Source of the DNA: Mimachlamys varia
Lineage: Eukaryota > Mollusca > Bivalvia > Pectinida > Pectinidae
Assembly: GCA_947623455.1 (NCBI GenBank)
Contig: OX392530.1
Location: forward strand, 35,247,405-35,311,404
DNA length: 64,000 nucleotides
Reading direction: 5' to 3'
The position numbers were made by a program, and so were the translations under genes. The notes under the pieces are model-generated. The model searched no databases and was not told where the DNA came from. It worked only from the letters and a program-made list of their open reading frames with translations. Positions 1 through 48,519 of the stretch are shown in pieces (within the stretch, counting starts at the first letter, position 1; each line of letters starts with the position of its first letter).

Positions 1-3000
1 TAGTCCACCCAAAATTGCAGTGTGTAGAATCACAGACTGTACTTACAGTGGTTGCAATACACTTGTCCAGTCCACACCGCACTACAGTGTGTAGAATCAC
101 AGACTGTACTTACACTGGTTCTAATACACTGGTCCAGTCCAACCAACACTACAGTGTGTAGAATTACAGACTGTACTTACACTGGTTACAATACACTGGT
201 CCAGTCCACCCTGCACTACAGTGTGTAGAAGCACAGACTGTACACTATACTTACACTGGTTACAATACACTGGTCCAGTCCACTCCACACTACAGTGTGT
301 AGAATCACAGACTGTACGTACATTGGTTACAATACACTGGTCCAGTCCACCCTGCACTACAGTGTGTAGAAGCACAGACTGTACACTGTACTTACACTGG
401 TTACAATACACTGGTCCAGTCCACTCCACACTACAGTGTGTAGAATCACAGACTGTACTTACACTGGTTACAATACACTTGTCCAGTCCACACCGCACTA
501 CAGTGTGTAGAATCACAAATTGTACTTACACTGGTTACAATACACTGGTTACAATACACTGGTTTAGTCCATCCAACACTACAGTGTGTAGAATCACAGA
601 CTGTACTTACAATGGTTGCAATACACTGGTCCAGTCCACCCCGCGCTACAGTGTGGAGAATTACAAACTGTACCTACACTGGTTACACTACATGTACACT
701 GGTCTAGTCCACCCCGCACTACAGTCGGTAGAATCAGAGACTGTACTTACGCTGGTTACAATACACTGGTCGAGTCCACCCCGCACTACAGTGTGTAGAA
801 TCACAGACTGTACTTACTCTGGTTACACTTTGTGTATACTGGTCTAATTAACCCTGCAGTGCAGTATGTAGAATCATAGACTGTATTTACACTGGTTACA
901 ATACACTGGTCCAGTCCACCTCGCACTACAGTGTGTATAATCACAGACTGTACTTATACTGGTTACAATACACTGGTCCAGTCCATCCCGCATTACAGTG
1001 TGTTTAATCACAGACTGTACTTACGCTGGTTCCAATACACTGGTCCAGTCCACCCCGCACTACAGTGTGTAGAATCACAGATTGTACTTACACTGATTAC
1101 AATACACTGGTTAGAATACACTGGTCCAGTCCAACCCACACTAGAGTGTGTAGAATACCAGACTGTACTTACACTGGTTACACTATATGTATACTGGTTT
1201 AATCAACCCCGCAGTTCAGTATGTAGAACCTAGACTGTATTTACACTGGTTACAATACACTGGTCCAGTCCACCTCGCACTACAGTGTGTATACTCACAG
1301 ACTGTACTTACATTGGTTACAATACACTGGTCCAGTGCCCCTCCCCGCACTACAGTGTGTAGAATCACAGATTGTACTTACACTGGTTACAATACAGTGG
1401 TTAGAATACACTGGTCCAGTCCACCCCACACTACAGTGTATAGAATCACAGACTGTACTTACACTGGTTACAATACACTGGTCAGGTTCACCCAACATTA
1501 CAGTGTGTAGAATCACAGACTGTACGTACATTGGTTACAATACTCTGGTCCAGTCCACCCCGCACTAAAGTGGGTAAAAGCACAGACTGTACTTACACTG
1601 GTTACAATACACTGGTTTAGTCCATCCCGCAATACAGTGTGTAGAATCACAGACTGTACTTACACTGGTTACAATACACTTGTCCAGTCGACACCGCACT
1701 ACAGTGTGTAGAATCACAGACTGTACTTACACTGGTTACAATACACTTGTCCAGTCCACACCGCACTACAGTGTGTAGAATCACAGATTGTACTTACACT
1801 GGTTACAATACACTGGTTACAATACACTGGTTTAGTCCACCCAACATTACAGTGTGTAGAATCACAGACTATACTTACAATGGTTGCAATATACTTGTCC
1901 AGTCCACACCGCACTACAGTGTGTAGAATCACAGACTGTTCTTACACTGGTTACAATACACTGGTCCAGTCCACCCTGCACTACAGTGTGTAGAAGCACA
2001 GACTGTACACTATACTTACACTGGTTACAATACACTGGTCCAGTCCACTCCACACTACAGTGTGTAGAATCACAGACTGTACGTACATTGGTTACAATAC
2101 ACTGGTCCAGTCCACCCTGCACTACAGTGTGTAGAAGCACAGACTGTACGTACATTGGTTACAATACACTGGTCCAGTCCACCCTGCACTACAGTGTGTA
2201 GAAGCACAGACTGTACACTGTACTTATACTGGTTACAATACACTGGTCCAGTCCACTCCACACTACAGTGTGTAGAATCACAGACTGTACTTACACTGGT
2301 TACAATACACTGGTTTTGTCCACCCCGCAATACAGTGTGTAGAATCACAGACTGTACTTACACTGGTTAGAATACACTGGTTCAGTCCATCCCACACTAC
2401 AGTGTGTAGAAATATAGACTGTTCTTACTCTGGTTACACTATATGTACACTGGTCCAGTCAACCATGCAGTTCAGTATGTAGAATCATAAACTGTTCTTA
2501 TTCTGGTTACACTATATGTACACTGGTCCAGTCAACCGTGCAGTTCAGTATGTAGAATCACACACTGTACTTACACTGGTTACAATACACTGGTAAGGTT
2601 CACCCAACATTACAGTGTGTAGAATCACAGACTGTACGTACATTGGTTACAATACTCTGGTCCAGTCCACCCCGCACTACAGTGGGTAGAAGCACAGACT
2701 GTACTTACAATGGTTACAATACACTGGTTTAGTCCACCCCGCACTACAGTGTGTAGAATCACAGATGGTACTTACACTGGTTACAATACACTGGTCCCGT
2801 CCACCCCACACTACACCGTGTAGAAGCACAGACTGTACTTACACTGGTTACAATACACTGGTCCAGTCCACCCAACACTACAGTGTGTAGAATCACAGAC
2901 TGTACTTACACTGGTCACCATACACTGGCCCAGTCAACCCGGTGCTACAGTGTGTACAATCACAGACGGTACTTACACTGATTACAGTACACTGGTCCAG

Positions 3001-5046
3001 TCCACCCCGCACTACAGTGTGTAGAATCACAGACTGTACTTACATTGGTTACAATACACTGGTCCAGTCCACCCCGCACTACAGTGTGTAGAATCACAGA
3101 CTGTACGTACATTGATTACAATAGAATGGTCCAGTCCAGCCCGCCATACAGTGTGTAGAATCACAGACTGTACTTACACTGGTTACAATACACTGGTTTA
3201 GTCCACCCAACACTACAGTGTGTAGAATCACAGACTGTACTTACACTGGTTGCAATACACTGGTCCAGTCCAACCCGCGCTACAGTGTGGAGAATCACAG
3301 ACTGTACTTACACTGGTTACAATACACTGGTCCAGTCCACCCAACACTACAGTGTGTAGAATCACAGACTGTACCTACACTGGTTACACTACATGTACAC
3401 TGGTCTAGTCCACCCCGCACTACAGTCGGTAGAATCACAGACTGTACTTACATTGGTTACAAAGCATTGGTCTAGTCCATCCCGCACTACAGTGTGTAGA
3501 ATCACAGACTGCACTTACACTGGTTACAATACACTGGTCCAGTCCACCCCACACTACAGTGTGTAGAATCACAGACTGTACTTACACTGGTTACAATACA
3601 CTGGTCCAGTGCACCCAACACTACAGTGTGTAGAATCACAGACTGTACTTACACTGGTTACAAAGCATTGGTCCAGTCCACCCCACACTTCAGTGTGTAG
3701 AATCACAGACTGTACTTACACTGGTTACAATACACTGGTCCAGTCCACCCAACACTACAGTGTGTAGAATCACAGACTGTACTTACATTGGTTACAAAGC
3801 ATTGGTCCAGTCCACCCCACACTTCAGTGTGTAGAATCACAGACTGTACTTACACTGGTTACAATACACTGGTCCACTCCACCCAACACTACAGTGTGTA
3901 GAATCACAGACTGTACTTACACTGGTCACCATACACTGGCCCAGTCAACCCGGTGCTACAGTGTGTACAATCACAGACGGTACTTACACTGATTACAGTA
4001 CACTGGTCCAGTCCACCCCGCACTACAGTGTGTAGAATCACAGACTGTACTTACATTGGTAACAATACACTGGTCCAGTCCACCCCGCACTACAGTGTGT
4101 AGAATCACAGACTGTACGTACATTGGTTACAATAGAATGGTCCAGTCCAGCCCGCAATACAGTGTGTAGAATCACAGACTGTACTTACACTGGTTACAAT
4201 ACACTGGTCCAGTCCACCCCGCATTTCAGTGTGTAGAAGCACAGACTGTACTTACACTGGTTACAATACACTGGTTTAGTCCACCCAACACTACAGTGTG
4301 TAGAATCACAGACTGTACATACAATGGTTGCAATACACTGGTCCAGTCCAACCCGCGCTACAGTGTGGAGAATTACAAAATGTACCTACACTGGTTACAC
4401 TACATGTACACTGGTCTAGTCCACCCCGCACTACAGTCGGTAGAATCACAGACTGTACTTACATTGGTTACAAAGCATTGGTCTAGTCCATCCCGCACTA
4501 CAGTGTGTAGAATCACAGACTGTACTTACACTGGTTACAATACACTGGTCCAGTCCACCCCACACTTCAGTGTGTAGAATCACAGACTGTACTTACACTG
4601 GTTACAATACACTGGTCCAGTGCACCCAACACTACAGTGTGTAGAATCACAGACTGTACTTACACTGGTTACAAAGCATTGGTCCAGTCCACCCCACACT
4701 TCAGTGTGTAGAATCACAGACTGTACTTACACTGGTTACAATACACTGGTCCAGTCCACCCAACACTACAGTGTGTAGAATCACAGACTGTACTTACATT
4801 GGTTACAAAGCATTGGTCCAGTCCACCCCACACTACAGTGTGTAGAAGCACAGACTGTAATTAAACTGGTTACAATACACTGGTCCAGTCCACCCCGCAC
4901 TACAGTGTGTAGAATCACAGACTGTACTTACATTGGTTACAAAGCATTGGTCCAGTCCACCCCACACTACAGTGTGTAGAAGCACAGACTGTAATTAAAC
5001 TGGTTACAATACACTGGTCCAGTCCACCCCGCACTACAGTCGGTAG

Positions 5047-7229
5047 AATCACAGACTGTACTTACACTGGTTACAATACACTGGTCAGGTTCACCCAACA
5101 TTACAGTGTGTAGAATCACAGACTGTACGTACATTGGTTACAATACTCTGGTCCAGTCCACCCCGCACTAAAGTGGTTAAAAGCACAGACTGTACTTACA
5201 CTGGTTACAATACACTGGTTTAGTCCATCCCGCAATACAGTGTGTAGAATCACAGACTGTACTTACACTGGTTACAATACACTTGTCCAGTCGACACCGC
5301 ACTACAGTGTGTAGAATCACAGACTGTACTTACACTGGTTACAATACACTTGTCCAGTCCACACCGCACTACAGTGTGTAGAATCACAGATTGTACTTAC
5401 ACTGGTTACAATACACTGGTTACAATACACTGGTTTAGTCCACCCAACATTACAGTGTGTAGAATCACAGACTGTACTTACAATGGTTGCAATATACTTG
5501 TCCAGTCCACACCGCACTACAGTGTGTAGAATCACAGACTGTTCTTACACTGGTTACAATACACTGGTCCAGTCCACCCTGCACTACAGTGTGTAGAAGC
5601 ACAGACTGTACACTATACTTACACTGGTTACAATACACTGGTCCAGTCCACTCCACACTACAGTGTGTAGAATCACAGACTGTACGTACATTGGTTACAA
5701 TACACTGGTCCAGTCCACCCTGCACTACAGTGTGTAGAAGCACAGACTGTACTTACACTGGTTAGAATACACTGGTTCAGTCCATCCCACACTACAGTGT
5801 GTAGAAATATAGACTGTTCTTACTCTGGTTACACTATATGTACACTGGTCCAGTCAACCATGCAGTTCAGTATGTAGAATCATAAACTGTTCTTATTCTG
5901 GTTACACTATATGTACACTGGTCCAGTCAACCGTGCAGTTCAGTATGTAGAATCACACACTGTACTTACACTGGTTACAATACACTGGTAAGGTTCACCC
6001 AACATTACAGTGTGTAGAATCACAGACTGTACGTACATTGGTTACAATACTCTGGTCCAGTCCACCCCGCACTACAGTGGGTAGAAGCACAGACTGTACT
6101 TACAATGGTTACAATACACTGGTTTAGTCCACCCCGCACTACAGTGTGTAGAATCACAGATGGTACTTACACTGGTTACAATACACTGGTCCCGTCCACC
6201 CCACACTACACTGTGTAGAAGCACAGACTGTACTTACACTGGTTACAATACACTGGTCCAGTCCACCCAACACTACAGTGTGTAGAATCACAGACTGTAC
6301 TTAAACTGGTCACCATACACTGGCCCAGTCAACCCGGTGCTACAGTGTGTACAATCACAGACGGTATTTACACTGATTACAGTACACTGGTCCAGTCCAC
6401 CCCGCACTACAGTGTGTAGAATCACAGACTGTACTTACATTGGTTACAATACACTGGTCCAGTCCACCCCGCACTACAGTGTGTAGAATCACAGACTGTA
6501 CGTACATTGATTACAATAGAATGGTCCAGTCCAGCCCGCCATACAGTGTGTAGAATCACAGACTGTACTTACACTGGTTACAATACACTGGTTTAGTCCA
6601 CCCAACACTACAGTGTGTAGAATCACAGACTGTACTTACAATGGTTGCAATACACTGGTCCAGTCCAACCCGCGCTACAGTGTGGAGAATCACAGACTGT
6701 ACTTACACTGGTTACAATACACTGGTCCAGTCCACCCAACACTACAGTGTGTAGAATCACAGACTGTACCTACACTGGTTACACTACATGTACACTGGTC
6801 TAGTCCACCCCGCACTGCAGTCGGTAGAATCACAGACTGCACTTACACTGGTTACAATACACTGGTCCAGTCCACCACACACTACAGTGTGTAGAATCAC
6901 AGACTGTACTTACACTGGTTACAATACACTGGTCCAGTGCACCCAACACTACAGTGTGTAGAATCACAGACTGTACTTACACTGGTTACAAAGCATTGGT
7001 CCAGTCCACCCCACACTTCAGTGTGTAGAATCACAGACTGTACTTACACTGGTTACAATACACTGGTCCAGTCCACCCAACACTACAGTATGTAGAATCA
7101 CAGACTGTACTTACATTGGTTACAAAGCATTGGTCCAGTCCACCCCACACTTCAGTGTGTAGAATCACAGACTGTACTTACACTGGTTACAATACACTGG
7201 TCCAGTCCACCCCGCACTACAGTCGGTAG
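5047..7229. repeat. Higher-order repeat, copy 1 (~2.18 kb)
   Basis: A block of about 32 units is repeated almost verbatim immediately downstream at an offset of 2183 bp. Diagnostic variants recur in the same order, such as the CAGGTTCACCCAACATTAC unit, the ACTATATGTAC units and the CACCATACACTGGCCC unit. Parts also match 1.7-4.3 kb at offsets near 3400-3600 bp. Boundaries are approximate. Confidence 0.8.
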
Positions 7230-9440
7230 AATCACAGACTGTACTTACACTGGTTACAATACACTGGTCAGGTTCACCCAACATTACAGTGTGTAGAATC
7301 ACAGACTGTACGTACATTGGTTACAATACTCTGGTCCAGTCCACCCCGCACTAAAGTGGTTAAAAGCACAGACTGTACTTACACTGGTTACAATACACTG
7401 GTTTAGTCCATCCCGCAATACAGTGTGTAGAATCACAGACTGTACTTACACTGGTTACAATACACTTGTCCAGTCGACACCGCACTACAGTGTGTAGAAT
7501 CACAGACTGTACTTACACTGGTTACAATACACTTGTCCAGTCCACACCGCACTACAGTGTGTAGAATCACAGATTGTACTTACACTGGTTACAATACACT
7601 GGTTACAATACACTGGTTTAGTCCACCCAACATTACAGTGTGTAGAATCACAGACTGTACTTACAATGGTTGCAATATACTTGTCCAGTCCACACCGCAC
7701 TACAGTGTGTAGAATCACAGACTGTTCTTACACTGGTTACAATACACTGGTCCAGTCCACCCTGCACTACAGTGTGTAGAAGCACAGACTGTACACTATA
7801 CTTACACTGGTTACAATACACTGGTCCAGTCCACTCCACACTACAGTGTGTAGAATCACAGACTGTACGTACATTGGTTACAATACACTGGTCCAGTCCA
7901 CCCTGCACTACAGTGTGTAGAAGCACAGACTGTACTTACACTGGTTAGAATACACTGGTTCAGTCCATCCCACACTACAGTGTGTAGAAATATAGACTGT
8001 TCTTACTCTGGTTACACTATATGTACACTGGTCCAGTCAACCATGCAGTTCAGTATGTAGAATCATAAACTGTTCTTATTCTGGTTACACTATATGTACA
8101 CTGGTCCAGTCAACCGTGCAGTTCAGTATGTAGAATCACACACTGTACTTACACTGGTTACAATACACTGGTAAGGTTCACCCAACATTACAGTGTGTAG
8201 AATCACAGACTGTACGTACATTGGTTACAATACTCTGGTCCAGTCCACCCCGCACTACAGTGGGTAGAAGCACAGACTGTACTTACAATGGTTACAATAC
8301 ACTGGTTTAGTCCACCCCGCACTACAGTGTGTAGAATCACAGATGGTACTTACACTGGTTACAATACACTGGTCCCGTCCACCCAACACTACACTGTGTA
8401 GAAGCACAGACTGTACTTACACTGGTTACAATACACTGGTCCAGTCCACCCAACACTACAGTGTGTAGAATCACAGACTGTACTTACACTGGTCACCATA
8501 CACTGGCCCAGTCAACCCGGTGTTACAGTGTGTACAATCACAGACGGTATTTACACTGATTACAGTACACTGGTCCAGTCCACCCCGCACTACAGTGTGT
8601 AGAATCACAGACTGTACTTACATTGGTTACAATACACTGGTCCAGTCCACCCCGCACTACAGTGTGTAGAATCACAGACTGTACGTACATTGATTACAAT
8701 AGAATGGTCCAGTCCAGCCCGCCATACAGTGTGTAGAATCACAGACTGTACTTACACTGGTTACAATACACTGGTTTAGTCCACCCAACACTACAGTGTG
8801 TAGAATCACAGACTGTACTTACAATGGTTGCAATACACTGGTCCAGTCCAACCCGCGCTACAGTGTGGAGAATCACAGACTGTACTTACACTGGTTACAA
8901 TACACTGGTCCAGTCCACCCAACACTACAGTGTGTAGAATCACAGACTGTACCTACACTGGTTACACTACATGTACACTGGTCTAGTCCACCCCGCACTG
9001 CAGTCGGTAGAATCACAGACTGTACTTACATTGGTTACAAAGCATTGGTCTAGTCCATCCCGCACTACAGTGTGTAGAATCACAGACTGCACTTACACTG
9101 GTTACAATACACTGGTCCAGTCCACCACACACTACAGTGTGTAGAATCACAGACTGTACTTACACTGGTTACAATACACTGGTCCAGTGCACCCAACACT
9201 ACAGTGTGTAGAATCACAGACTGTACTTACACTGGTTACAAAGCATTGGTCCAGTCCACCCCACACTTCAGTGTGTAGAATCACAGACTGTACTTACACT
9301 GGTTACAATACACTGGTCCAGTCCACCCAACACTACAGTGTGTAGAATCACAGACTGTACTTACATTGGTTACAAAGCATTGGTCCAGTCCACCCCACAC
9401 TTCAGTGTGTAGAATCACAGACTGTACTTACACTGGTTAC
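7230..9440. repeat. Higher-order repeat, copy 2 (~2.2 kb)
   Basis: This is the second copy of the block at 5047-7229. The offset is 2183 bp through about 8990 and 2250 bp afterwards, so copy 2 gained one 67-bp unit. Sequence around 9874-10155 additionally matches 4296-4577 at an offset of 5578 bp, showing more than one round of large-block duplication. Confidence 0.75.
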
Positions 9441-12400
9441 AATACACTGGTCCAGTCCACCCAACACTACAGTGTGTAGAATCACAGACTGTACTTACAC
9501 TGGTCACCATACACTGGCCCAGTCAACCCGGTGCTACAGTGTGTACAATCACAGACGGTACTTACACTGATTACAGTACACTGGTCCAGTCCACTCCGCA
9601 CTACAGTGTGTAGAATCACAGACTGTACTTACATTGGTAACAATACACTGGTCCAGTCCACCCCGCACTACAGTGTGTAGAATCACAGACTGTACGTACA
9701 TTGGTTACAATAGAATGGTCCAGTCCAGCCCGCAATACAGTGTGTAGAATCACAGACTGTACTTACACTGGTTACAATACACTGGTCCAGTCCACCCCGC
9801 ATTTCAGTGTGTAGAAGCACAGACTGTAGTTACACTGGTTACAATACACTGGTTTAGTCCACCCAACACTACAGTGTGTAGAATCACAGACTGTACATAC
9901 AATGGTTGCAATACACTGGTCCAGTCCAACCCGCGCTACAGTGTGGAGAATTACAAAATGTACCTACACTGGTTACACTACATTTACACTGGTCTAGTCC
10001 ACCCCGCACTACAGTCGGTTGAATCACAGACTGTACTTACATTGGTTACAAAGCATTGGTCTAGTCCATCCCGCACTACAGTGTGTAGAATCACAGACTG
10101 TACTTACACTGGTTACAATACACTGGTCCAGTCCACCCAACACTACAGTGTGTAGAATCACAGACTGTACTTACACTGGTTACAATACACTGGTCCAGTG
10201 CACCCAACACTACAGTGTGTAGAATCACAGACTGTACTTACACTGGTTACAAAGCATTGGTCCAGTCCACCCCACACTTCAGTGTGTAGAATCACAGACT
10301 GTACTTACACTGGTTACAATACACTGGTCCAGTCTACCCAACACTACAGTGTGTAGAATCACAGACTGTACTTACATTGGTTACAAAGCATTGGTCCAGT
10401 CCACCCCACACTACAGTGTGTAGAAGCACAGACTGTAATTAAACTGGTTACAATACACTGGTCCAGTCCACCCCGCACTACAGTGTGTAGAATCACAGAC
10501 TGTACTTACATTGGTTACAAAGCATTGGTCCAGTCCACCCCACACTACAGTGTGTAGAAGCACAGACTGTAATTAAACTGGTTACAATACACTGGTCCAG
10601 TCCACCCCGCACTACATTCGGTAGAATCACAGACTGTACTTACATTGGTTACAATACACTGATCCAGTCCATCCCGCACTACAGTCGGTAGAATCACAGA
10701 CTGTACTTACATTGGTTACAATACACTGGTCCAGTCCATCCCGCACTACAGTCGGTAGAATCAGAGACTGTACTTACACTGGTTACAATACACTGGTCCA
10801 GTCCATCCCACACTACAGTTTGTAGAAGCACAGACTGTACTTACACTGGTTACAATACACTGGTCCAGTCCACCCAACACTACAGTGTGTAGAATCACAG
10901 ACTGTACTTACACTGGTCACCATACACTGGCCCAATCAACCCGGTGCTACAGTGTGTACAATCACAGACGGTACTTACACTGATTACAGTACACTGGTCC
11001 AGTCCACCCCGCACTACAGTGTGTAGAATCACAGACTGTACGTACATTGGTTACAATACACTGGTCCAGTCCACCCCGCACTACAGTGTGTAGAATCACA
11101 GACTGTACGTACATTGGTTACAATAAAATGGTCCAGTCCAGCCCGCAATACAGTGTGTAGAATCACAGATTGTACTTACACTGGTTACAATACATTGGTC
11201 CGATCCACCCCGCATTTCAGTGTGTAGAAGCACAGACTGTACTTACACTGGTTACAATACACTGGTTTAGTCCACCCAACACTACAGTGTGTAAAATCAC
11301 AAACTGTACTTACAATATTTGCAATACACTGGTCCAGTCCACCCCGCACTACAGTGTGTAGAATCACATACTGTACTTAGCTGGTTGCAATACACTGGTC
11401 CAGTCCACCCCACACTACAGTTTGTAGAAGCACAGACTGTACTTACGCTGGTTACAATACACTGGTCCAGTCCACCCCGCACTACAGTGTGTAGAATCAC
11501 AGACTGTACTTACGCTGGTTACAATACACTGGTCCAGTCTAACCCGCACTACAGTGTGTAGAATCACAGATTGTACTTACACTGGTTATAATACACTGGT
11601 TTAGAATACACTGGTCCAGTCCACCCCATACTAGAGTGTGTAGAATCCCAGACTGTACTTACTCTGGTTACACTATATGTATACTGGTCTAATCAACCCT
11701 GCAGTTCAGTAAATAGAATCATAGACTGTTCTTACTCTGGTTACACTATATGTACACTGGTCCAGTCAACCCTTCAGTTCAGTATGTAGAATCCTAAACT
11801 GTATTTACACTGGTTACATTACACTGGTCCAGTCCACCTCGCAGTACAGTGTATAGAATCACAGACTGTACTTACATTGGTTACAATACACTGGTCCAGT
11901 CCACCTCTCACTACAGTGTGTATACTCACAGACTGTACTTACATTGGTTACAATACACTGGTCCAGTGCCCCCCCCCGCCCTACAGTGTGTAGAATCACA
12001 GATTGAACTTACACTGGTTTCAATACACTGGTTAGAATACACTGGTCCAGTCCACCCCACACTACAGTGTGTAGAATCATAGACTGTTCTTACTCTGGTT
12101 ACACTATATGAACACTTGTGCAGCCAACCCTGCAGTTCAGTATGTAGAATCATAGACTGTACTTACACTGGTTACACTATATGTACACTGGTCCAGTCCA
12201 CCCCACACTACAGTGTATAGAATCACACACTGTACTTACACACTGGTTACAATACATTGGTCAGGTTCACCCCACATTACAGTGTGTAGAATCACAGACT
12301 GTACGTACATTGGTTACAATACTCTGGTCCAGTCCACCCCGCACTAAAGTGGGTAAAAGCACAGACTGTACTTACACTGGTTACAATACACTGGTTTAGT

Positions 12401-13699
12401 CCACCCCACAATACAGTGTGTAGAATCACAGACTGTACTTACACTGGTTACAATACACTTGTCCAGTCCACCCCGCACTAAAGTGGGTAAAAGCACAGAC
12501 TGTACTTACACTGGTTACAATACACTGGTTTAGTCCACCCCACAATACAGTGTGTAGAATCACAGACTGTACTTACACTGGTTACAATACACTTGTCCAG
12601 TCCACCCCGCACTAAAGTGGGTAAAAGCACAGACTGTACTTACACTGGTTACAATACACTGGTTTAGTCCACCCCACAATACAGTGTGTAGAATCACAGA
12701 CTGTACTTACACTGGTTACAATACACTGGTCCAGTCCACCCCGCACTACAGTGTGTAGAATCACAAACTGTACGTACATTGGTTACAATACACTGGTCCA
12801 GTCCACGCTGCACTACAGTGTGTAGAAGCACAGACTGTACACTGTACTTACACTGGTTACAATACACTGGTCCAGTCCACTCCACAATACAGTGTGTAGA
12901 ATCACAGACTGTACTTACACTGGTTACAATACACTGGTTTAGTCCACCCCGCAATACAGTGTGTAGAATCACAGACTGTACTTACACTGATTACAATACA
13001 TTGGTCAAGTCCACCCCGAACCATAGTGTGTATAATCACAGACTGTACTTACACTGGTTACAATACATTGGTCCAGTCCACCCCGAACCACAGTGTGTAG
13101 AATCACAGACTGTACTTACACTGATTGCAATACACTGGTCCAGTCCAACCCGCATTACAGTGTGAAGAATCACAGACTGTACTTACACTAATCGCAATAC
13201 ACCGGTCATGTCCACTCCGCATTACAGTGTGTAGAATCACAGACTGTACTTACGCTGGTTACAATACACTGGTCCAGTCCACCCCGCACTACAGTGTGTA
13301 GAATCACAGACTGTTCTTACACTGGTTACAATACACTGGTTTAGTCCACCCCACAATACAGTGTGTAGAATCACAGACTGTACTTACACTGGTTACAATA
13401 CACTGGTCTAGTCCACCCTGCACTACAGTGTGTAGAATCACAGACTGTACGTACATTGGTTACAATACACTGGTCCAGTCCACCCTGCACTACAGTGTGT
13501 AGAAGCACAGACTGTACACTGTACTTACACTGGTTACAATACACTGGTCCAGTCCACTCCACACTACAGTGTGTAGAATCACAGACTGTACTTACACTGG
13601 TTACAATACACTGGTTTAGTCCATCCTGCAATACAGTGTGTAGAATCACAGACTGTACTTACACTGGTTACAATACACTGGTCCAGTCTACCCCGCACT

Positions 13700-15110
13700 A
13701 CAGTGTGTAGAATCACAGATTGTACTTACACTGGTTACAATACACTGGTTAGAATACACTGGTTCAGTGCACCCCACACTACAGTGTGTAGAATCATAGA
13801 CTGTTCTTACTCTGGTTACACTATATGTACACTGATCCAGTCAACCATGCAGTTCAGTATGTAGAATCATAAACTGTACTTACACTGGTTACACTATATG
13901 TACACTGGTCCAGTCAACCGTGCAGTTCAGTATGTAGAATTATAGACTGTTCTTATTCTGGTTACACTATATGTACACTGGTCCAGTCCACCCCACACTA
14001 CAGTGTATAGAATCACACACTGTACTTACACTGGTTACAATACACTGGTCAGGTTCACCCCACATTACAGTGTGTAGAATCACAGACTGTACGTACATTG
14101 GTTACAATACTCTGGTCCAGTCCACCCCGCACTACAGTGGGTAGAATCACAGACTGTACTTACACTTGTTACAATACACTGGTCAGTCCACCCCACACTA
14201 CAGTGTATAGAATCACAGACTGTTCTTACACTGGTTACAATACATTGGTCAAGTCCACCACGAACCACAGTGTGTATAATCAAAGACTGTACTTACACTG
14301 GTTACAATACACTGGTTAGAATACACTGGTCCAGTCCACCCTACACTACAGTGTATAGAATCACAGACTGTACTTACACTGGTTACAATACACTGGTCAG
14401 GTTCACCCAACATTACAGTGTGTAGAATCACAGACTGTACGTACATTGGTTACAATACTCTGGTCCAGTCCACCCCGCACTAAAGTGGGTAAAAGCACAG
14501 ACTGTACTTAAACTGGTTACAATACACTTGTCCAGTTCACACCGCACTACAGTGTGTAGAATCACAGACTGTACTTACACTGGTTACAATACACTTGTCC
14601 AGTCCACACCGCACTACAGTGTGTAGAATCACAGATTGTACTTACACTGGTTACAATACACTGGTTACAATACACTGGTTTAGTCCACCCAACACTACAG
14701 TGTGTAGAATCACAGACTGTACTTACAATGGTTGCAATACACTGGTCCAGTCCACCCCGCGCTACAGTGTGGAGAATTACAAACTGTACCTACACTGGTT
14801 ACACTACATGTACACCGGTCTAGTCCACCCCGCACTACATTCGGTAGAATCACAGACTGTACTTACGCTGGTTACAATACACTGGTCGAGTCCACCCCGC
14901 ACTACAGTGTGTAGAATCACAGACTGTTCTTACTCTGGTTACACTTTATGTATACTGGTCTAATCAACCCTGCAGTTCAGTATGTAGAATCATAGACTGT
15001 ATTTACACTGGTTACAATACACTGGTCCAGTCCACCTCGCACTACAGTGTGTATAATCACAGACTGTACTTACACTGGTTACAATACACTGGTCCAGTCC
15101 ACCCCGCACT
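13700..15110. repeat. Higher-order repeat, 1411-bp copy 1
   Basis: A 1411-bp block (about 21 units) is repeated in direct tandem with the next entry. Several independent landmarks, at 14080, 14249, 14595 and 14732, all recur exactly 1411 bp later. The two copies look nearly identical by eye, so this duplication is probably recent. Confidence 0.85.
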
Positions 15111-16470
15111 ACAGTGTGTAGAATCACAGATTGTACTTACACTGGTTACAATACACTGGTTAGAATACACTGGTTCAGTGCACCCCACACTACAGTGTGT
15201 AGAATCATAGACTGTTCTTACTCTGGTTACACTATATGTACACTGATCCAGTCAACCATGCAGTTCAGTATGTAGAATCATAAACTGAACTTACACTGGT
15301 TACACTATATGTACACTGGTCCAGTCAACCGTGCAGTTCAGTATGTAGAATTATAGACTGTTCTTATTCTGGTTACACTATATGTACACTGGTCCAGTCC
15401 ACCCCACACTACAGTGTATAGAATCACACACTGTACTTACACTGGTTTCAATACACTGGTCAGGTTCACCCCACATTACAGTGTGTAGAATCACAGACTG
15501 TACGTACATTGGTTACAATACTCTGGTCCAGTCCACCCCGCACTACAGTGGGTAGAATCACAGACTGTACTTACACTTGTTACAATACACTGGTCAGTCC
15601 ACCCCACACTACAGTGTATAGAATCACAGACTGTTCTTACACTGGTTACAATACATTGGTCAAGTCCACCACGAACCACAGTGTGTATAATCAAAGACTG
15701 TACTTACACTGGTTACAATACACTGGTTAGAATACACTGGTCCAGTCCACCCCACACTACAGTGTATAGAATCACAGACTGTACTTACACTGGTTACAAT
15801 ACACTGGTCAGGTTCACCCAACATTACAGTGTGTAGAATCACAGACTGTACGTACATTGGTTACAATACTCTGGTCCAGTCCACCCCGCACTAAAGTGGG
15901 TAAAAGCACAGACTGTACTTACACTGGTTACAATACACTTGTCCAGTTCACACCGCACTACAGTGTGTAGAATCACAGACTGTACTTACACTGGTTACAA
16001 TACACTTGTCCAGTCCACACCGCACTACAGTGTGTAGAATCACAGATTGTACTTACACTGGTTACAATACACTGGTTACAATACACTGGTTTAGTCCACC
16101 CAACACTACAGTGTGTAGAATCACAGACTGTACTTACAATGGTTGCAATACACTGGTCCAGTCCACCCCGCGCTACAGTGTGGAGAATTACAAACTGTAC
16201 CTACACTGGTTACACTACATGTACACCGGTCTAGTCCACCCCGCACTACATTCGGTAGAATCACAGACTGTACTTACGCTGGTTACAATACACTGGTCGA
16301 GTCCACCCCGCACTACAGTGTGTAGAATCACAGACTGTTCTTACTCTGGTTACACTTTATGTATACTGGTCTAATCAACCCTGCAGTTCAGTATGTAGAA
16401 TCATAGACTGTATTTACACTGGTTACAATACACTGGTCCAGTCCGCCTCGCACTACAGTGTGTATAATCA
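15111..16470. repeat. Higher-order repeat, 1411-bp copy 2
   Basis: This is the second copy of the 1411-bp block. Identity fades near 16470, where this copy continues into a unit order that resembles 0.9-1.5 kb instead. The right boundary is approximate. Confidence 0.8.
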
Positions 16471-19444
16471 CAGACTGTACTTATACTGGTTACAATACAC
16501 TGGTCCAGTCCACCCCGCATTACAGTGTGTTTAATCACAGACTGTACTTACGCTGGTTACAATACACTGGTCCAGTCCACCCCGCACTACAGTGTGTAGA
16601 ATCACAGATTGTACTTACACTGATTACAATACACTGGTTAGAATACACTGGTCCAGTCCAACCCACACTAGAGTGTGTAGAATCCCAGACTGTACTTACT
16701 CTGGTTACACTATATGTATACTGGTCTAATCAACCCCGCAGTTCAGTATGTAGAACTTTGACTGTATTTACACTGGTTACAATACACTGGTCCAGTCCAC
16801 CTCGCAATACAGTGTATAGAATCACAGACTGTACTTACATTGGTTATAATACACTGGTCCAGTCCACCTCGCACTACAGTGTGTATACTCACAGACTGTA
16901 CTTACATTGGTTACAATACACTGGTCCAGTGCCCCTCCCCGCACTACAGTGTGTAGAATCACAGATTGTACTTACACTGGTTAGAATACACTGGTTAGAA
17001 TACACTGGTTCAGTCCACCCCACACTACAGTGTATAGAATCACAGACTGTACTTACACTGATTACAATACACTGGTCAAGTTCACCCAACATTACAGTGT
17101 GTAGAATCACAGACTGTACGTACATTGGTTACAATACTCTGGTCCAGTCCACCCCGCACTAAAGTGGGTAAAAGCAGAGACTGTACTTACACTGGTTACA
17201 ATACACTGGTTTAGTCCACCCCGCAATACAGTGTGTAGAATCACAGACTGTACTTACACTGGTTACAATACACTTGTCCAGTCCACACCGCACTACAGTG
17301 TGTAGAATCACAGACTGTACTTACACTGGTTACAATACACTTGTCCAGTCCACACCACACTACAGTGTGTAGAATCACAGATTGTACTTACACTGGTTAC
17401 AATACACTGGTTACAATTCACTGGTTTAGTCCACCCAACACTACAGTGTGTAGAATCACAGACTGTACTTACAATGGTTGCAATACACTGGTCCAGTCCA
17501 CCCCGCGCTACAGTGTGGAGAATTACAAACTGTACCTACACTGGTTACACTACATGTACACTGGTCTAGTCCACCACGCACTACAGTCGGTAGAATCACA
17601 GACTGTACTTACATTGGTTACAAAGCATTGGTCCAGTCCATCCCGCACTACAGTGTGTAGAATCACAGACTGTACTTACACTGGTTCCAATACACTGGTC
17701 CAGTCCAACCAACACTACAGTGTGTAGAATTACAGACTGTACTTACACTGGTTACAATACACTGGTCCAGTCCACCCTGCACTACAGTGTGTAGAAGCAC
17801 AGACTGTACACTATACTTACACTGGTTACAATACACTGGTCGAGTCCACTCCACACTACAGTGTGTAGAATCACAGACTGTACTTACATTGGTTACAATA
17901 CACTGGTCCAGTCCACCCTGCACTACAGTGTGTAGAACCACAGACTGTACACTGTACTTACACTGGTTACAATACACTGGTCCAGTCCACTCCACACTAC
18001 AATGTGTAGAATCACAGACTGTACTTACACTGGTTACAATACACTGGTTTAGTCCACCCGGCAATACAGTGTGTAGAATCACAGACTGTACTTACACTGG
18101 TTAGAATACACTGGTTCAGTCCATCCCACACTACAGTGTGTAGAATCATAGACTGTTCTTACTCTGGTTACACTACATGTACACTGGTCCAGTCAACCAT
18201 GCAGTTCAGTATGTAGAATCATAAACTGTTCTTATTCTGGTTACACTATATGTACACTGGTCCAGTCAACCGTGCAGTTCAGTATGTAGAATCACACACT
18301 GTACTTACACTGGTTACAATACACTGGTCAGGTTCACCCCACATTACAGTGTGTAGAATCACAGACTGTACGTACATTGGTTACAATACTCTGGTCTAGT
18401 CCACCCCGCACTACAGTGGGTAGAAGCACAGACTGTACTTACACTGGTTACAATACACTGGTTTAGTCCACCCCGCACTACAGTGTGTAGAATCACAGAC
18501 TGTACTTACACTGGTTACAATACACTGGTCCAGTCCATCCCGCACTACACTGTGTAGAATCACAGATGGTACTTACACTGGTTACAATACACTTGTCCAG
18601 TCCACACCGCACTACAGTGTGTAGAATCGCAGACTGTACTTACACTGGTTACAATACACTGGTCCAGTCCACCCCACACTACAGTGTGTAGAAGCACAGA
18701 CTGTACTTACACTGGTTACAATACACTGGTCCAGTCCACCCAACACTACAGTGTGTAGAATCACAGACTGTACTTATTCTGGTCACCATACACTGGCCCA
18801 GTCAACCCGGTGCTACAGTGTGTACAATCACAGACGGTACTTACATTGATTACAGTACACTGGTCCAGTCCACAACGCACTACAGTGTGTAGAATCACAG
18901 ACTGTACTTACAATGGTTGCAATACACTGGTCCAGTCCACCCCGCACTACAGTGTGTAGAATCACATACTGTACTTAGCTGGTTGCAATACACTGGTCCA
19001 GTCCACCCCACACTACAGTTTGTAGAAGCACAGACTGTACTTACACTGGTCACAATACACTGGTCCATTCCACCCCGCACTACAGTTTGTAGAATCACAG
19101 ACTATATTTACAATGGTTACAATACACTGGTCCAGTCCACCCCGCACTGCAGTGTGTAGAATCAGACTGTACTTACACTGGTTACAATACACTGGTCCAG
19201 TCCACCTCGCCCTACAGGATGTAGAATCACAGATCGAACTTACACTGGTTACAATACACTGGTCCAGTCTACCCCACACTACAGTGTTTAGAATCACAGA
19301 CTGTACTTACATTGGTTACAATACACTGGTCCAGTCTACCCCACACTACAGTGTTTAGAATCACAGACTGTACTTACATTGGTTACAATACTCTGGTCCG
19401 GTCCACCCTGCACTACAGTGTGTAGAATCACAGACTGTACTTAC

Positions 19445-19582
19445 ATTGGTTACAATACTCTGGTCCGGTCCACCCTGCACTACAGTGTGTAGAATCACAG
19501 ACTCCGTTGTCAGGGTTACAACCGTGTTTACAGTTGGTACAACTGTGTTGACACTGGTCACCATACTTATATGTAAAGCAAC
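19445..19582 (-). CDS. Gene A exon 4: EGF-like module that seeded the satellite
   Basis: A 138-bp phase 1-1 exon, with acceptor CTTGCCAG before GTTGCTTTAC. It encodes a cysteine-rich EGF-like module running from GCFTYKYGDQC through CKHGCNPDNGVC to CDSTHCSAGWTGPEYCNQ. The donor is AAT|GTAAGT at 19444. Its last ~55 bp and the donor are the source sequence of the adjoining array. Confidence 0.85.
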
Positions 19583-22500
19583 CTGGCAAGTTAATTGTCT
19601 AAGCTGACTTTATATTATTCACAAACATTTTGAAAAAAATATATATACATTTCTAAAATGACATTCAAATGTATTAAAATAACCAATCAATGATTTAATG
19701 TGACGTTCCGATGACTAGTTCGTTGTATACCTTTTCACCTTCATCAGACAAATGACCAGCAAAGCCTATGCAAACTAAGGGGTACATTTTGTACGAGTTG
19801 GTAATCGTTCGTTACGTCTACGCTGTTAGGCGTATGTACAATAGTAAAGTTCGCCCGATCAGAAAAGAAACAGGCGAATTGGAATCTAAGATATACAAAT
19901 CAGCAATCACAAACCATGCCATACAGAGAAAGTATGTGATTGACTGGGAAAATGCCAAAGTGATAGGCAGAGAGCAATCTGCTAAAGCGGCAGATAGAAG
20001 AGGCCATCCAGATACGCCGCAGTCGACCGGTTCTAAATCGAGAAGAGTGGGCTTACAGACTCTCTCATATATAAGACCAAGTAGTAAACAAGGCGTAGCT
20101 GAATCGAGTTACTTCGGTACAATAATTTTAATTTGTCATTACCGATTCATAAACAATTTAAACCGTATGCATACGCTTTGCTCGTCATTTGTCTGATGAA
20201 GGTGACAGGGTACACAATAATTATAAAATTTTATATTTGTACCAGGGAAATTTTCCCACTTGATGAAATAAATAAATAATAAATATGAGCGACGGTATCA
20301 TTTACAAAATAGATTACATTCCAAGCAAGTTGAAAGTGAGCCTGGGAAGCTCATACCCTTATGTTGTATGACAGTAATAAGTTGTTTCTTATTCTTATTC
20401 TCAGTCATCTTCTACGTTAAGTAACGCATCAAATACACTATTACCATACACGTCCACCTCACACACGTCCATATAAGCTGTGTCTGGTGGTGTCCTGGTG
20501 ATGATGATTATCACTCTCTGACCGGTTACGTTACACGAGGTGATGTTTTGAGTGACGTTAGGTGTACCGGCGTCCACATCCTCGTAACATTTGTTACCAG
20601 ACGGTATACCTGTATCGTTTGATATCCACAAGGCAAAGCCATCGGCACGATCTGTTGATGAGAAACGTAAGATACAAAATACAAGAGTCAAAATGAAAGA
20701 CCAAACTTGAACACAATTATGTATACCTTTGTACGTAATACTGTCTTTGTTTTACCTTGGATGATATTCCGGTCTAGTACATTGTAAATTTTAACCTTCA
20801 CAACTGACAAACAACTTCATTAATACTTGACATGATAAACATTTAATATTGCATCTTGTAATATAGATTGGAGTATGTAGTGTAACTAGTTATGTATTGT
20901 ATGTATCGCTGACAGAAAGACAGAAAAGTAGTTGGAAGATTTTCACTTTAACTACATAACAGGTATATGAAAGTTTGTATTGCCTTTAGCTAAGAAGGTA
21001 ATGAATGAGATACACTGTATCACATGACATTTGTATGATGGTCTCCTTTTAACCCAGTGTCAATCTGGATGATATTCATAACAGTATAGATACAGTCCAG
21101 ACCACCGGATAATACTATGACGTCAAGGTGGCTCCATGTTAACCTACAATACGTCAACACATATAACGACGCCTCCGATCATACATATTATAACTACCGG
21201 TATGTTAACATAAAAGAGAAAAAAACTAAGAAATAATTGCTTTGATAATGTATTAAATACTATCTGAATGTTTAGATATCCATTGGACATTTATTATATT
21301 GTATTTAAGTTTATGTATATACAATCGGTATTCAGATAATTAGAATGACGTTTTATGACGTCCTGATATCCTATTCATCCGTCACCCAGATTGCATTAAA
21401 ATTAACATTGAATATAATGTGCCATTTATTATGATCAATATTTAAATACATGTACATACTTTCTAAATATAAGCTTTATAAATCACGCTATAAGTTATTG
21501 GTATCCCCCGTAGATATTGCTTCGGCGAGCGAAATGTAAATTGTTTACGTCGGTCATACCAGCCCAGTGAAGCTTGTGTTGATTTGGTGTACCTGACATG
21601 CTGACTTTAGATAATTGTCTTATTTCTTTGTTTGTGTTGATTTAGTGTACCTGACATGCTGACTTTAAATAATTGTCTTATTTCTTTGTTTGTGCTGTGT
21701 ATTGAAAAGTAGTGACAACTCCAATCGGTTCTCCTAACAAATGTTGTCATCTAATGTGACGATGGTCACTTTCCTGAACCTCTAACTACATTATGTAAGA
21801 ATGTCAATTGTTTTCATACAACGACACTGAAAACTAGTTACCATACAATTACGGTTAATCCGTTAAAAACGATAGTTGATGAAGAAGTTGGATAATCATT
21901 ATTGTCACATTGTATATGTTTTATAGAGTTGTTATTATGCTGTCTTTTTTCCGTTATAAAGTCACGGATTCTTGCGACTCCCAGGGAAAATCTGCTGACA
22001 ACTATTGTAAAGCAACAGGCAATTGTAGTGTATGGCGTGTTTGCTAACTCTTGGTTTCATGCGGTTAGAAAAAACATCAAAACACGTGCTGTACCTTAAA
22101 TCAGTCACAACATACAACGAAAGTGAATTATGATCACACAATATGTTACATGGCACTTAAAGTATCACTTTTGGTGCAATGACATAATTGCCCACTTCAC
22201 AAAGATATAACCCTCGATTCGTACATGTAGTGCCAAAGTCTAAACCATTTTTTTGTATATATTTCAGTATAGTTGTCAGTGTCAACTACATTTCCTATAG
22301 ATTCAGTACTTATTCAGTCTATAGTTCCCATATGGTCCTGTTTTACGTTGTATCAGCAATTTAAAATTATTTACGATATTTGTAATAATTACAGACTCTC
22401 CGAATCCGAGTTCAATACAGGGAAATTTGTAGGACCGGGTACATTTGTACGTGTAAAGACATAGCTTAGCGGTAACGTAGCAGTGTACAGCGGCTTGTAA

Positions 22501-25500: not shown

Positions 25501-27108
25501 ATAGGGTGTCAAATGGAGCATCCAATAGCAAGGTCTGACTGCAACTTTTCTTGAATAACATGAATAGTTGAGCCAGATGAACTTAAAGTTGAGTCGTCGG
25601 CATACATATCAATGGAAGACTGAAGTTTAAGTGGAAGATCATTTATGAAAATGAGAAAAATGAGGGGACCCAATATTGACCCCTGAGGTACACCATGTGT
25701 AATAGGCTTACTGCCACAGATTTTACTAGATACACAAACGTTTTGAAATCGATCCGAAATGTAGGAATTAAACCAACTCAAAGATGTGCAATCATATTCA
25801 TATAAAGCTAACTTTCGAATAAGGACTTCATGATTGACCATATCAAATGCTGTTTCTGAAATCTATAAATACCACACCATTGATATTTCTTTTGTCAATT
25901 TCTTTTGCCCTATTATTGACAATGCTGAGAAGGGTAGTTTCACAAGAGTAATGTTTACGAAATCCAGATTGTGAGGCAACTAATAAATTATGTTGATTTA
26001 AAAAAAGCATTAGGAAAACTACCGTGTGTATTACTTCTTTGACCTACAACGTTTATATATATATATATATATAAATGTATTGATTATGTACATGTATCAG
26101 CGAATTACATGCAAACGTGTGATACAAAGTGTCAATATTATTGAAGTTACCTTGATTAATAGCACGTGTAATTAATTTGATAATACACATAATTGTATTG
26201 ATTTTGATACGTAGTAAACATATATACCATCGTATAGGAACACTGAGGGATGATTAACAAATTGATGAGGTAAATGCATTTATCATATTTGGTCGTGCTC
26301 GTCCAAATTACAGGTAGAGGCACGCATTAACCAATGACTCACCTGGACTTCGAAATACGATGTCGATTTTCTGTATTCTTGCCCTCGAAGGTAATGTTCC
26401 TCTCCACCAAACACTAGTTGCACCAATAGAGGCCATACACACATTTTTAGCAAAAGGGCCGTAGACTCCATCTGTTGTACCGGACACTGGGAAATCTGTA
26501 CTCGTAATCTTTGTTGCATCAAGTGCCAACTGACTCTTCAGGTTGACTTCAAGTGTGAAAATGACAGCATACATATCTTGATTTATATTACATAATTATA
26601 CGATTATATGTTTCACAAGGTACTCTATGTCACAGTTTCGATAATCTGTTGCTAAACTGTATATAAAAATATATAAGTCATTGCTTGGTTACATCGCAGT
26701 AATTTTCCCGAAAAGTTGCCTCTAAACCGCTACATAGGAACAAGATATGAGACGATTTATATTTTTGTGCTTTTTCATAACAAAATTCAATACATGTAAC
26801 ATGTAACTTCAAACGAGAGCACCAATGATATGTTTGATATATCAGTATTTCCTTTTCTGAAATACTTACTTAATAAACTCATCACGACCACAGCCGAAAC
26901 GAAGTCCATACTTCAGGTAACTTGTGTTCCGTTTTTGTATGATCAAACATACCAACATGAAATGAACCTCATTCTTACTAAGTCATGACTGACACTCAAA
27001 ACTTTAAACAGTAAACAATGTAAACTTACTACTCGTTTGAATCCCTGGAAACAAACTCAACAGAAGTGTCCCAAACACTAGGAACAAAGCTCCTACAGGC
27101 CTCTCCAT
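19445..27108 (-). CDS. Gene A: lectin-like/EGF receptor, 5' part (exons 1-4)
   Basis: Paralogue of gene B, partial because it runs off the left edge. Exons by spliced reading on the minus strand: 27030-27108, 26343-26546, 20445-20651 and 19445-19582. All junctions are phase 1. Together they encode about 209 residues: a signal peptide starting MERPVGALFLVFG, a two-exon FTP / F5/8C-like domain, and one EGF-like module rich in cysteines. Exons are bounded by AG and by GTAAGT, GTGAGT or GTAATA. By homology to gene B, further EGF exons, a membrane helix and a tail should follow, but only after more than 19 kb of satellite. Reading through the first donor meets a stop after CKYSL, which would leave a short secreted protein. 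The start was chosen for its signal peptide and its match to gene B. Which ligand it binds is unknown. Confidence 0.8.
19724..20214 (+). mobile_element. 491-bp inverted-repeat-flanked retroelement fragment with an open frame
   Basis: Two nearly identical ~52-bp inverted repeats, both containing CTTCATCAGACAAATGAC, bound the segment. Between them a plus-strand frame of 142 codons (19768-20196) includes KSAITNHAIQRKYVIDWENA. That phrase resembles the C-terminal endonuclease-side region of Penelope-like or related retroelements, from memory of family style only. I saw no equivalent at the matching place in gene B's intron, so it probably inserted after the duplication. It could instead be a different DNA element carrying retroelement sequence. 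Confidence 0.5.
20445..20651 (-). CDS. Gene A exon 3: second half of FTP-like domain
   Basis: A 207-bp phase 1-1 exon encoding RADGFALWISNDTGIPSG and then a stretch ending CEVDVYG. The CEV.VYG ending is typical of the last strand of F-type lectin / F5/8C-like domains. It has two NxT/S sites and differs from gene B's exon at about a dozen residues. Confidence 0.85.
20652..24629 (-). other. Gene A intron 2, duplicated then unmatched AT-rich DNA
   Basis: From the exon to about 22800 the sequence is collinear with gene B's intron (38906 to about 40940). A matching pair is the block at 21960-22160 with 40230-40430. From about 22800 to 24630 there is no counterpart in gene B, and I see no gene, RNA or clear repeat in that part. 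Short open frames here lack splice or domain support. Confidence 0.6.
24630..26030 (-). mobile_element. Dead non-LTR (LINE) retrotransposon, 5'-truncated
   Basis: The minus strand encodes reverse-transcriptase motifs: SGFRKHYSCETT, VFIDF, then GVPQGSILGPLIFLIFINDL and MYADDST. A C-terminal region follows with DAPFDTLSAELFTLRWVPI and VYKCVNNLVPEYL. Frameshifts break it near 25850, between the RT core and the C-terminal part at about 25510-25560, and near 25290. The 3' end falls at about 24630-24660 in an AATAAATAAAG / TAA-rich tail. It lies inside gene A's intron 2, has no match in gene B, and is oriented like the host gene. Confidence 0.85.
26343..26546 (-). CDS. Gene A exon 2: first half of FTP-like domain
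   Basis: A 204-bp phase 1-1 exon encoding GTTDGVYGPFAKNVCMAS, then VWWRGTLPSRARIQKIDIVF. The WWR followed by a strand is the usual lectin-like jelly-roll signature. The donor is CCAG|GTGAGT. It is 3 bp longer than the gene B exon. Confidence 0.85.
27030..27108 (-). CDS. Gene A exon 1: start codon and signal peptide
   Basis: Encodes a 26-residue hydrophobic leader, MERPVGALFLVFGTLLLSLF then PGIQTS, ending in phase 1 at GTAAGT. The ATG is shared with gene B at the same spacing from conserved 5' flank, which supports the start. Confidence 0.85.
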
Positions 27109-28610: not shown

Positions 28611-28614
28611 GTTA

Positions 28615-29640
28615 TGCTGTCTACCGTATGCGTTCTGATGTCTACTGTACACGTTCTGATGTAAACTGTACATGTTCTGATGTCTACTGTACACGTTCTG
28701 ATGTCTACTGTACACGTTCTTATGTCTACTGTACACGTTCTGTCATCTACTGTACACGTTCATATATCTATTTAGACAGTTAAATGTCTACTGTACATGT
28801 TCCGATGTCTACTGTGCACGTTCTGATGTCAATTATGCACGTTTTGATGTCCACTGTATATGTTCTGTTGTCAACTTTACACGTTCTGATATCTACTGTA
28901 CACGTTCTGATGTCTACTGTACACGTAATGTTGTCTACTGTACACGTTCTGATGTCTACTGTACACGTTCCGATGTCTACTGTACACATTCTGATGTCTA
29001 CTGTACACATTCTGATGTCTACTGTACACGTTCTGATGTCTACAGTACATGTTCCGATATCTACTGTACCCGTTCTGATGTCTACTGTACACGTTCCGAT
29101 GTCTACTGTACACGTTTTGATGTCTACTGTACATGTTCTGATGTCTACTGTACACGCTCTGATGTCAATTATGCACGGTTTGATGTCTACTGTACATGTT
29201 CTGATATCTACTGTACACGTTCTGATGTCTACTGTGCACGTTTTGATGTCTACTTTACACGTTCTGATGTCTACTGTACATGTTTTGATGTCTACTGTAC
29301 ACGTTCTGATGTCTACTTTACACGTTCTGATGTCTACTGTACATGTTTTGATGTCTACTGTACACGTTCTGATGTCTACTGTTCACGTTTGTATGTCTAA
29401 TGTACACGTTCTGATATCTACTGTACACGTTCTGATGTCTACTGTTCATGTTCTGATGTCTAATGTACATGTTCTAATGTCTACTGTCATGTTTTGATGT
29501 CTACTGTACCTATTCGGATGTCTACAGTACACGTTCTTATTTCTAATGTACACGTTCTGATGTCTACTGTACACGTTCTGATGTCTACTGTACACGTTCT
29601 GATGTCTACTTAACATGTTCTGTTGTCTACTGTGCACGTT
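28615..29640. repeat. 21-bp minisatellite, copy upstream of gene A
   Basis: About 48 degenerate copies of GTTCTGATGTCTACTGTACAC, all in one orientation. The period is a multiple of three, so four of six frames stay open for long stretches, for example a 237-codon frame of MSTVHVL repeats. I regard these as by-products. The sister array lies at 47059-48165. Confidence 0.9.
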
Positions 29641-31646: not shown

Positions 31647-31822
31647 TTACGCTGTATTTAGCACCCTGTATTGTGATCCTGCGTCCACGGTAATCCCTAC
31701 GGTATCGTATACGTTAGGGACGGACCTAGTCAGGGAGTTCAGTTTTTCATAATTATCACCTGCTGTTACTCTCTCAGAAGTTGGCTGCACATTTTCAGTG
31801 TCTACAACTTCGTAAGCACAAT
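31647..31822 (-). CDS. Gene B exon 13: cytoplasmic tail with four YxxPhi motifs
   Basis: Encodes the last 58 residues and the TAA stop. Tyrosines 580 (YEVV), 601 (YEKL), 615 (YDTV) and 628 (YRVL) each have a hydrophobic residue at +3. YEKL and YDTV are 10 residues apart, an ITAM-like spacing. SQYRVL fits the ITIM consensus. Whether they are phosphorylated is inference. Confidence 0.8.
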
Positions 31823-48165: not shown

Positions 48166-48519
48166 GTATACATTACAGAATTTTAGTTCTAACTAACTTA
48201 AAGTCAATTAAAGTTTTTGCAAAATTTGTACAAAACAATTAAACGTATTTTGTTTTTTAAAGCCACCACATCTTTATGCGGTTTGGTCATACTACTCCCA
48301 TACTACGTTTATGAACATCTTTGACATCGATTGCCGTTATTTCGTAATTAGGGTTTTTCACCAACTGGTGAAAAAAAGTCGTTTTGTTTCTGTCCTGTTT
48401 CTTTTCTTATTATTCTTCCCACGAAATTTGTGGAGTCTATATCTTGTAATCTATAAGGTATATATTAATAATCTTTATGCATATTATAGATGATTATGTA
48501 ACGGTGTCAACCTCGGTAT
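48166..48519. other. Unique AT-rich spacer, nothing seen
   Basis: No gene, repeat or RNA recognised between the minisatellite and the ~430-bp repeat family. Confidence 0.5.

Follow-up and report, generated by a model that had tools for sequence, protein, structure and literature searches.

Gene A and the array in its intron

We analysed 64,000 nucleotides of the genome of the scallop Mimachlamys varia (assembly GCA_947623455.1, contig OX392530.1, positions 35,247,405 to 35,311,404; the window), with 29 flanking 10-kb stretches added; positions outside 1-64000 are given in window units. The minus strand carries gene A, one of several tandem copies of a receptor gene with F-lectin-like and EGF domains, and an array of 67-bp repeats that begins at the 3' end of its EGF1 exon. 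Read from the DNA, the array fills one intron of this gene.

The unit consists, on the minus strand, of the final 59 bp of the EGF1 exon and the initial 8 bp of the intron, GTAAGTAC. The exon ends in ...AACCAAT, with GTAAGTAC following at the boundary (...CAAT, then GTAAGTACAG); the 67-bp unit starts within this exon end and is repeated directly downstream. The original prediction, that a satellite had formed from an exon's 3' end together with its own donor and that it adjoins the real exon, is thus borne out. Its unit length of 67 bp also stands, and the proposed division into about 55 and 12 bp becomes 59 and 8, because the AGTC that follows GTAAGTAC starts the next exon-derived copy.

Tandem Repeats Finder reported 67-bp and multiple-of-67 arrays spanning 18-19503 of the window. 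This part holds 283 units with at least 70% identity to the consensus, the exon's own included, and GT is present in 266 of them and GTAAGT in 202. The minus strand has 201 GTAAGT hexamers in 1-19503, as against 13 in the remaining window when the small second array, in copy B, is excluded. Extending left beyond the window, the array spans 19503 to -50544, or 70,048 bp; the 19.5 kb first proposed is indeed present, as the in-window portion of an array of about 70 kb that includes a 3.4-kb insert. Wrap-around alignment of the whole array gave 956 units at the same identity threshold, again counting the exon's own. The other 955 are decoy units, a longer ladder than the part first described: GT is kept in 891/955 and GTAAGT in 710/955. 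Mean identity to the consensus is 93.2% among the 954 near-full-length units, and the commonest unit spacings are 67, 81, 73 and 74 bp. The copy number of the units excludes a chance origin of the array.

The array runs in a single orientation, as predicted: none of its 48-mers is present in its own reverse complement. Exact 48-mer chaining, over the 13 most frequent shifts, showed repeated internal blocks of about 1-3 kb with identities of 96-99.9%, mostly 98% or above. Blocks of up to 2.9 kb agree at 99.1-99.8%, and several block shifts lie near 24.2 kb. The long head-to-tail arrangement and the higher-order duplication or homogenisation are two features of satellite DNA. Its one non-array insert covers about 3.37 kb (about -38600 to -35232); short imperfect internal repeats lie near the ends of this insert, and its longest open stretch is 109 residues. 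A genome search with the 67-mer returned nothing, a result that is uninformative on the spread of the repeat because the search skips common words.

Might assembly have inflated the array? Duplicated stretches within it agree at up to 99.9%, a level that reads of HiFi length resolve with difficulty. Nevertheless, the 334 kb of joined sequence contain no N, the units average 93.2% identity to the consensus rather than being identical copies, and eight other gene copies have separate arrays. The source assembly was made from HiFi reads at 44-fold, according to its description (PMC11252643). We regard an artefact as highly improbable.

The prediction also placed the array within one gene, and the exons beyond it agree. 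At least nine more EGF exons lie between -50961 and -57984, and matches to a cytoplasmic segment and to a tyrosine-phosphatase domain mark further exons at about -60.3, -64.1 and -64.9 kb, all on the same strand. The joined EGF exons match PF24887 (EGF-like domain) at 34.8 bits, over the 27-bit cut-off, and the query phosphatase exons, which belong to gene C by position, match PF00102. Upstream of the array, the joined galactose-binding F-lectin-like exons gave an E-value of 1.3e-05 against PF22633, with 26.2 bits, under the 27.8-bit cut-off; single lectin exons had no Pfam match. The exons that flank the 70-kb array are open in alignments on both sides. Altogether gene A spans at least 91 kb, and the array makes up about three quarters of that.

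Features of gene A and of its paralog, copy B, in window coordinates
Feature	Position	Strand	Basis or remark
EGF1 exon, gene A	19445..19582	-	symmetric exon (phase 1-1) of 138 nt that encodes CFTYKYGDQCQHSCTNCKHGCNPDNGVCDSTHCSAGWTGPEYCNQ; its genuine donor, GTAAGT, begins at 19444
Unit 0 (founding unit)	19437..19503	-	59 bp of exon end, then GTAAGTAC
In-window part of the 67-bp satellite	1..19436	-	282 decoy units, intronic; array continues to -50544
EGF2 exon, gene A	-50961 to -51092 (outside the window)	-	counterpart of copy B EGF2
F-lectin-like domain, second exon, gene A	20445..20651	-	directly upstream of EGF1; joined exons compared with PF22633
F-lectin-like domain, first recognised exon, gene A	26335..26529 (ends approximate)	-	joined with the second exon for PF22633
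EGF1 exon, copy B (paralogous)	38297..38434	-	beside the array of copy B
Array of copy B	37888..38355	-	7 units, exon end counted; closes distally with TGTACGTA, past which the intron is unique; Tandem Repeats Finder
EGF2 exon, copy B	37495..37626	-	downstream of the array-bearing intron; extent of protein match

Between the two lectin exons of gene A, at 25125-26043, minus-strand open frames resembling reverse transcriptase (for example YADDSTL) were recognised by eye. They are probably a decayed retroelement.

Tandem copies and the origin of the repeat

The array of gene A is one of a family. We compared unit numbers among nine paralogs, and all 9/9 tandem copies with a recovered EGF1 exon have an array at the EGF1 junction, ranging from 5 to about 956 units; the decoys per paralog number about 4, 5, 6, 10, 21, 21, 27, 31 and 955. 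The array beside the paralogous exon of copy B lies in the window itself and had gone unreported in the original prediction. In 7/9 copies (X, Y, Z, B, C, D and F) the array also ends at a common distal boundary, TGYACGTA or TTTACGTA followed by NYRATARRAAYA. For Y, D, C and F this boundary was matched by BLAST with the 200 bp past the array of Z, and for B and X by eye. Because all nine copies have an array and seven share the same intron endpoint, the array is older than the duplication of the gene copies.

In its exon half the unit codes for the C-terminal portion of an EGF domain, and this half aligns with the gene's other EGF exons, sharing their cysteines and Gly-Trp/Tyr. The alignment argues for derivation of the satellite from the exon. 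On the converse possibility, the satellite came first and was exonised, or its position agreed by chance with that of an exon end, which would make the exon a late passenger. That the repeat itself encodes part of an EGF domain related to others in the gene speaks against this, as do the presence of arrays at one junction in every recovered copy and the distal boundary common to seven of them. The late-passenger reading is therefore strongly disfavoured on the sequence comparison, and we give it next to no weight.

Introns may be gained by tandem duplication, as the AGGT model describes. Here, 9/9 copies possess the EGF1-EGF2 intron, and past the last unit the intron sequence is unique, which suggests that duplication lengthened an existing intron rather than creating one.

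Could the array in turn act on the exon? The unit after the founding unit (19370-19436) is identical to it at 67/67 bases, and the exon end and first intronic unit of gene A share a Val-to-Glu change that is absent from the other eight exons. The identity over 67 bases indicates that the junction of gene A was re-duplicated recently or that one of the two copies overwrote the other. The array might be a reservoir from which gene conversion feeds variants into the exon, diversifying the first EGF domain of the receptor. Consistent with this, the base change behind the Val-to-Glu replacement is carried by 31 other units of array A, and identical counterparts of the B, D and E exon ends exist among the array units. 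Those 31 units, however, do not have the exon's full set of variants. Moreover, pairwise divergence among eight exons (X left out) is 0.0527 in the array-homologous part and 0.0522 in the adjacent, non-repeated part, so that neither homogenisation nor added diversity is visible, and units 1-3 are only slightly nearer to their own exon than later units are (0.940, n = 24, vs 0.926, n = 81; A left out). Because the two parts of the exon diverge alike, regular exchange between exon and array, or feedback of variants, is not supported, and we think a reservoir role very unlikely.

Copy X differs from the others at the junction itself. At the end of its EGF1 exon (about -141805 to -141942), the genuine donor reads TTAAGT where GTAAGT is expected, whereas the GTAAGT of the array unit that follows is intact. 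Its EGF1 exon has Arg where the other eight copies share Trp, and its lectin exon has a gap; because of these two changes, the copy may be degenerating.

We also made some observations on the tandem copies that do not concern the array. There are two kinds of copy, as noted in the window at 31692-31820 and 57948-58800. Some (by position, A, C and one near 189 kb) have tyrosine-phosphatase exons, and others have in their place a transmembrane exon and a short tail whose tyrosines, read by eye, resemble YxxL motifs. This is reminiscent of paired signalling receptors. A second tandem array, with 21-bp units (sense GTGTACAGTAGACATCAGAAC), recurs upstream of lectin exons at 28611-29640 and 47060-48168 in the window and further at -136089, -114120, -71338, 81205, 119700, 144658 and 169629-181965, reaching 12.3 kb in one copy. 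We rejected a tie between the 21-bp arrays and splice junctions, as no recognised exon adjoins them in copies A and B. Finally, the DNA that separates the lectin exons of copy B (at 42127-42524 and 43930-44317) holds AT-rich, partly palindromic repeats of about 21 bp that contain GATATC and run in either direction.

Decoy donors and the tolerance of a 70-kb intron

What would follow if a decoy were used? Read-through past the genuine donor meets a stop at 17 nt in 7/8 copies and at 32 nt in Y, and in copy X a stop lies ahead of the first decoy. Any decoy use or intron retention would thus end the protein after the first EGF domain. Because the stop follows the position of the genuine donor, the decoys would be non-productive sites rather than the ends of alternative coding exons. 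Skipping of EGF1 (138 nt), by contrast with these outcomes, preserves the frame.

The units themselves bear little trace of constraint. When six-column windows are ordered by conservation across array A and corrected for base type, the donor hexamer comes 28th of 67, and we saw no special conservation of it. Single donor columns give a mixed picture: the two G columns are 4th and 6th of 20, one A column is 15th of 16 and one T column 17th of 19. By this measure, selection on the decoy donors is unsupported. There is likewise no consistent codon-position effect in the units, and 750 of 918 ungapped units are free of stops, as against 742 +/- 5 in column shuffles, both results coming from a run in which about 49 spurious units of the 3.4-kb insert were counted; on these two grounds we rejected coding constraint.

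The sense strand of the array is unusual in its RNA-processing signals. GTAAGT occurs 10.6 times per kb, whereas the rest of the cluster DNA, 75.7 kb of it, has 0.34 per kb. In 66.6 kb, the array contains 0 AATAAA and 23 ATTAAA, compared with about 1.3 per kb of each in cluster DNA. This richness in U1 sites and scarcity of polyadenylation signals follow from the sequence of the unit and need not have been selected. U1 guards transcripts against premature polyadenylation in human, mouse and Drosophila, according to PMC5499120. If U1 protects scallop transcripts in the same way, these traits of the unit would favour transcription through the intron.

The explanation that we favour, and consider probable, is that the array is a neutral intronic satellite, born from an exon-donor junction and tolerated through use of the most upstream donor. 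It would have started with a tandem duplication of the EGF1 exon-intron junction and grown by unequal exchange between units. Pairing of the EGF1 acceptor with the first and most upstream donor, as reported for intron 7 of human F7, would explain why the array is tolerated, and the many U1-type sites and few polyadenylation signals would explain how a 70-kb intron can be transcribed through. Where a decoy was used or the intron retained, the stop 17-32 nt past the genuine donor would lead to a truncated ectodomain or to nonsense-mediated decay.

Several observations weigh against this explanation. Arrays are retained in 9/9 copies, which is not required of a neutral repeat, and the distal array ends of A and E differ from the shared boundary. 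The single donor columns, with two G columns near the top, are mixed, and the run used for codon positions contains the spurious units of the insert. From its base composition alone the array would be expected to hold about 25 AATAAA and 28 ATTAAA, so the low counts of polyadenylation signals are partly a matter of composition. Use of the upstream donor, for its part, is carried over by analogy from a human gene.

The strength of the decoys also has to be reckoned with. Scored with a donor matrix for human sites (X was not scored, and 7/27 decoys of D were unscored), decoys equal or exceed their own genuine donor in 98/949 cases in A, 20/20 in D, 23/30 in E and 9/10 in Z. In the remaining copies they rarely do so or never: 1/4 in Y, 1/21 in C, 0/6 in B and 0/5 in F. 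Strength alone therefore does not always mark the genuine donor; position does, the genuine donor being first.

The same observations bear on whether the array is a regulatory ladder, in which functional decoys compete with the genuine donor or hold U1 on nascent RNA and so set how much full-length membrane receptor is made relative to a truncated, soluble ectodomain (F-lectin plus one EGF), with array length tuning the balance in each paralog. An array is kept in every recovered copy; the truncation expected from decoy use would be short and well defined in all of them; some decoys match the genuine site in strength by the human matrix, including most of those scored in D, E and Z; and U1-type sites are very dense and polyadenylation signals scarce. 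Yet the donor hexamer is no better conserved than other six-column windows (rank 28 of 67), and the stop is automatic, because the unit is not a multiple of 3 and the exon supplies its own TGTGAT. Lengths from 5 to about 956 units give no hint of a maintained size. We consider such a ladder unlikely. Somewhat less likely again is its most specific form, in which the donor satellite is a length-tunable U1 platform and decoy ladder that sets the membrane and soluble lectin-EGF shares paralog by paralog, gene A with its roughly 956 units being the extreme.

Precedents and significance

The original prediction held that no such satellite had been described, and this needs correction: the repeats in intron 7 of human F7 and human repeats at exon-intron boundaries (PMC2812944) are precedents. 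F7 intron 7 is built of 37-bp repeats, with the donor of exon 7 in the first; by what is termed oriented scanning, the upstream donor is reportedly used, and a mutant at donor position +5 shows exon skipping and use of downstream cryptic sites. The F7 repeat has 5-8 copies. Gene A is similar: its array runs in the sense direction, the genuine 5' splice site belongs to the first repeat (as it does in copy X, there with TT for GT), the later repeats are donor-like (GT in 891/955), and copy number varies, here between paralogs. Copy X, with its dead donor, is a natural donor mutant, comparable to the F7 +5 mutant. Unlike the 37-bp repeat of F7, with few copies in one human gene, the scallop repeat has a 67-bp unit and reaches up to about 956 units and 70 kb across nine paralogs.

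Genes in human segmental duplications are reported to have undergone 27 intron modifications from tandem repeats at exon-intron boundaries (PMC2812944). These too are boundary minisatellites that differ among recent paralogs. They average 30 bp x 4 (160 bp) and form novel introns in that account, whereas the scallop intron has probably been lengthened, by up to 70 kb. Another likeness is offered by the Drosophila Y genes kl-3 and kl-5, whose gigantic introns are filled with simple satellites such as (AATAT)n and reach up to megabases (PMC6508621). The intron of gene A, like these, is mostly satellite inside a predicted transcription unit. Unlike them, as there described, its satellite derives from the end of the host exon itself, extends over 70 kb and is known here from DNA.

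In the open-licence literature on exon-junction or bivalve satellites and minisatellites, we found no junction-derived repeat at satellite scale across a gene family. The architecture has precedents; its scale across a gene family is without one in the literature searched.

These arrays bear on an old question: when many near-identical 5' splice sites are on offer, how does the spliceosome settle on one? The F7 repeats offer one natural case. The nine paralogs, with their graded numbers of decoys and the dead donor of copy X, are a further, natural test bed for that choice. They also indicate a route of satellite birth and intron growth, in that the end of a coding exon can seed a satellite of tens of kilobases with the flanking exons staying open.

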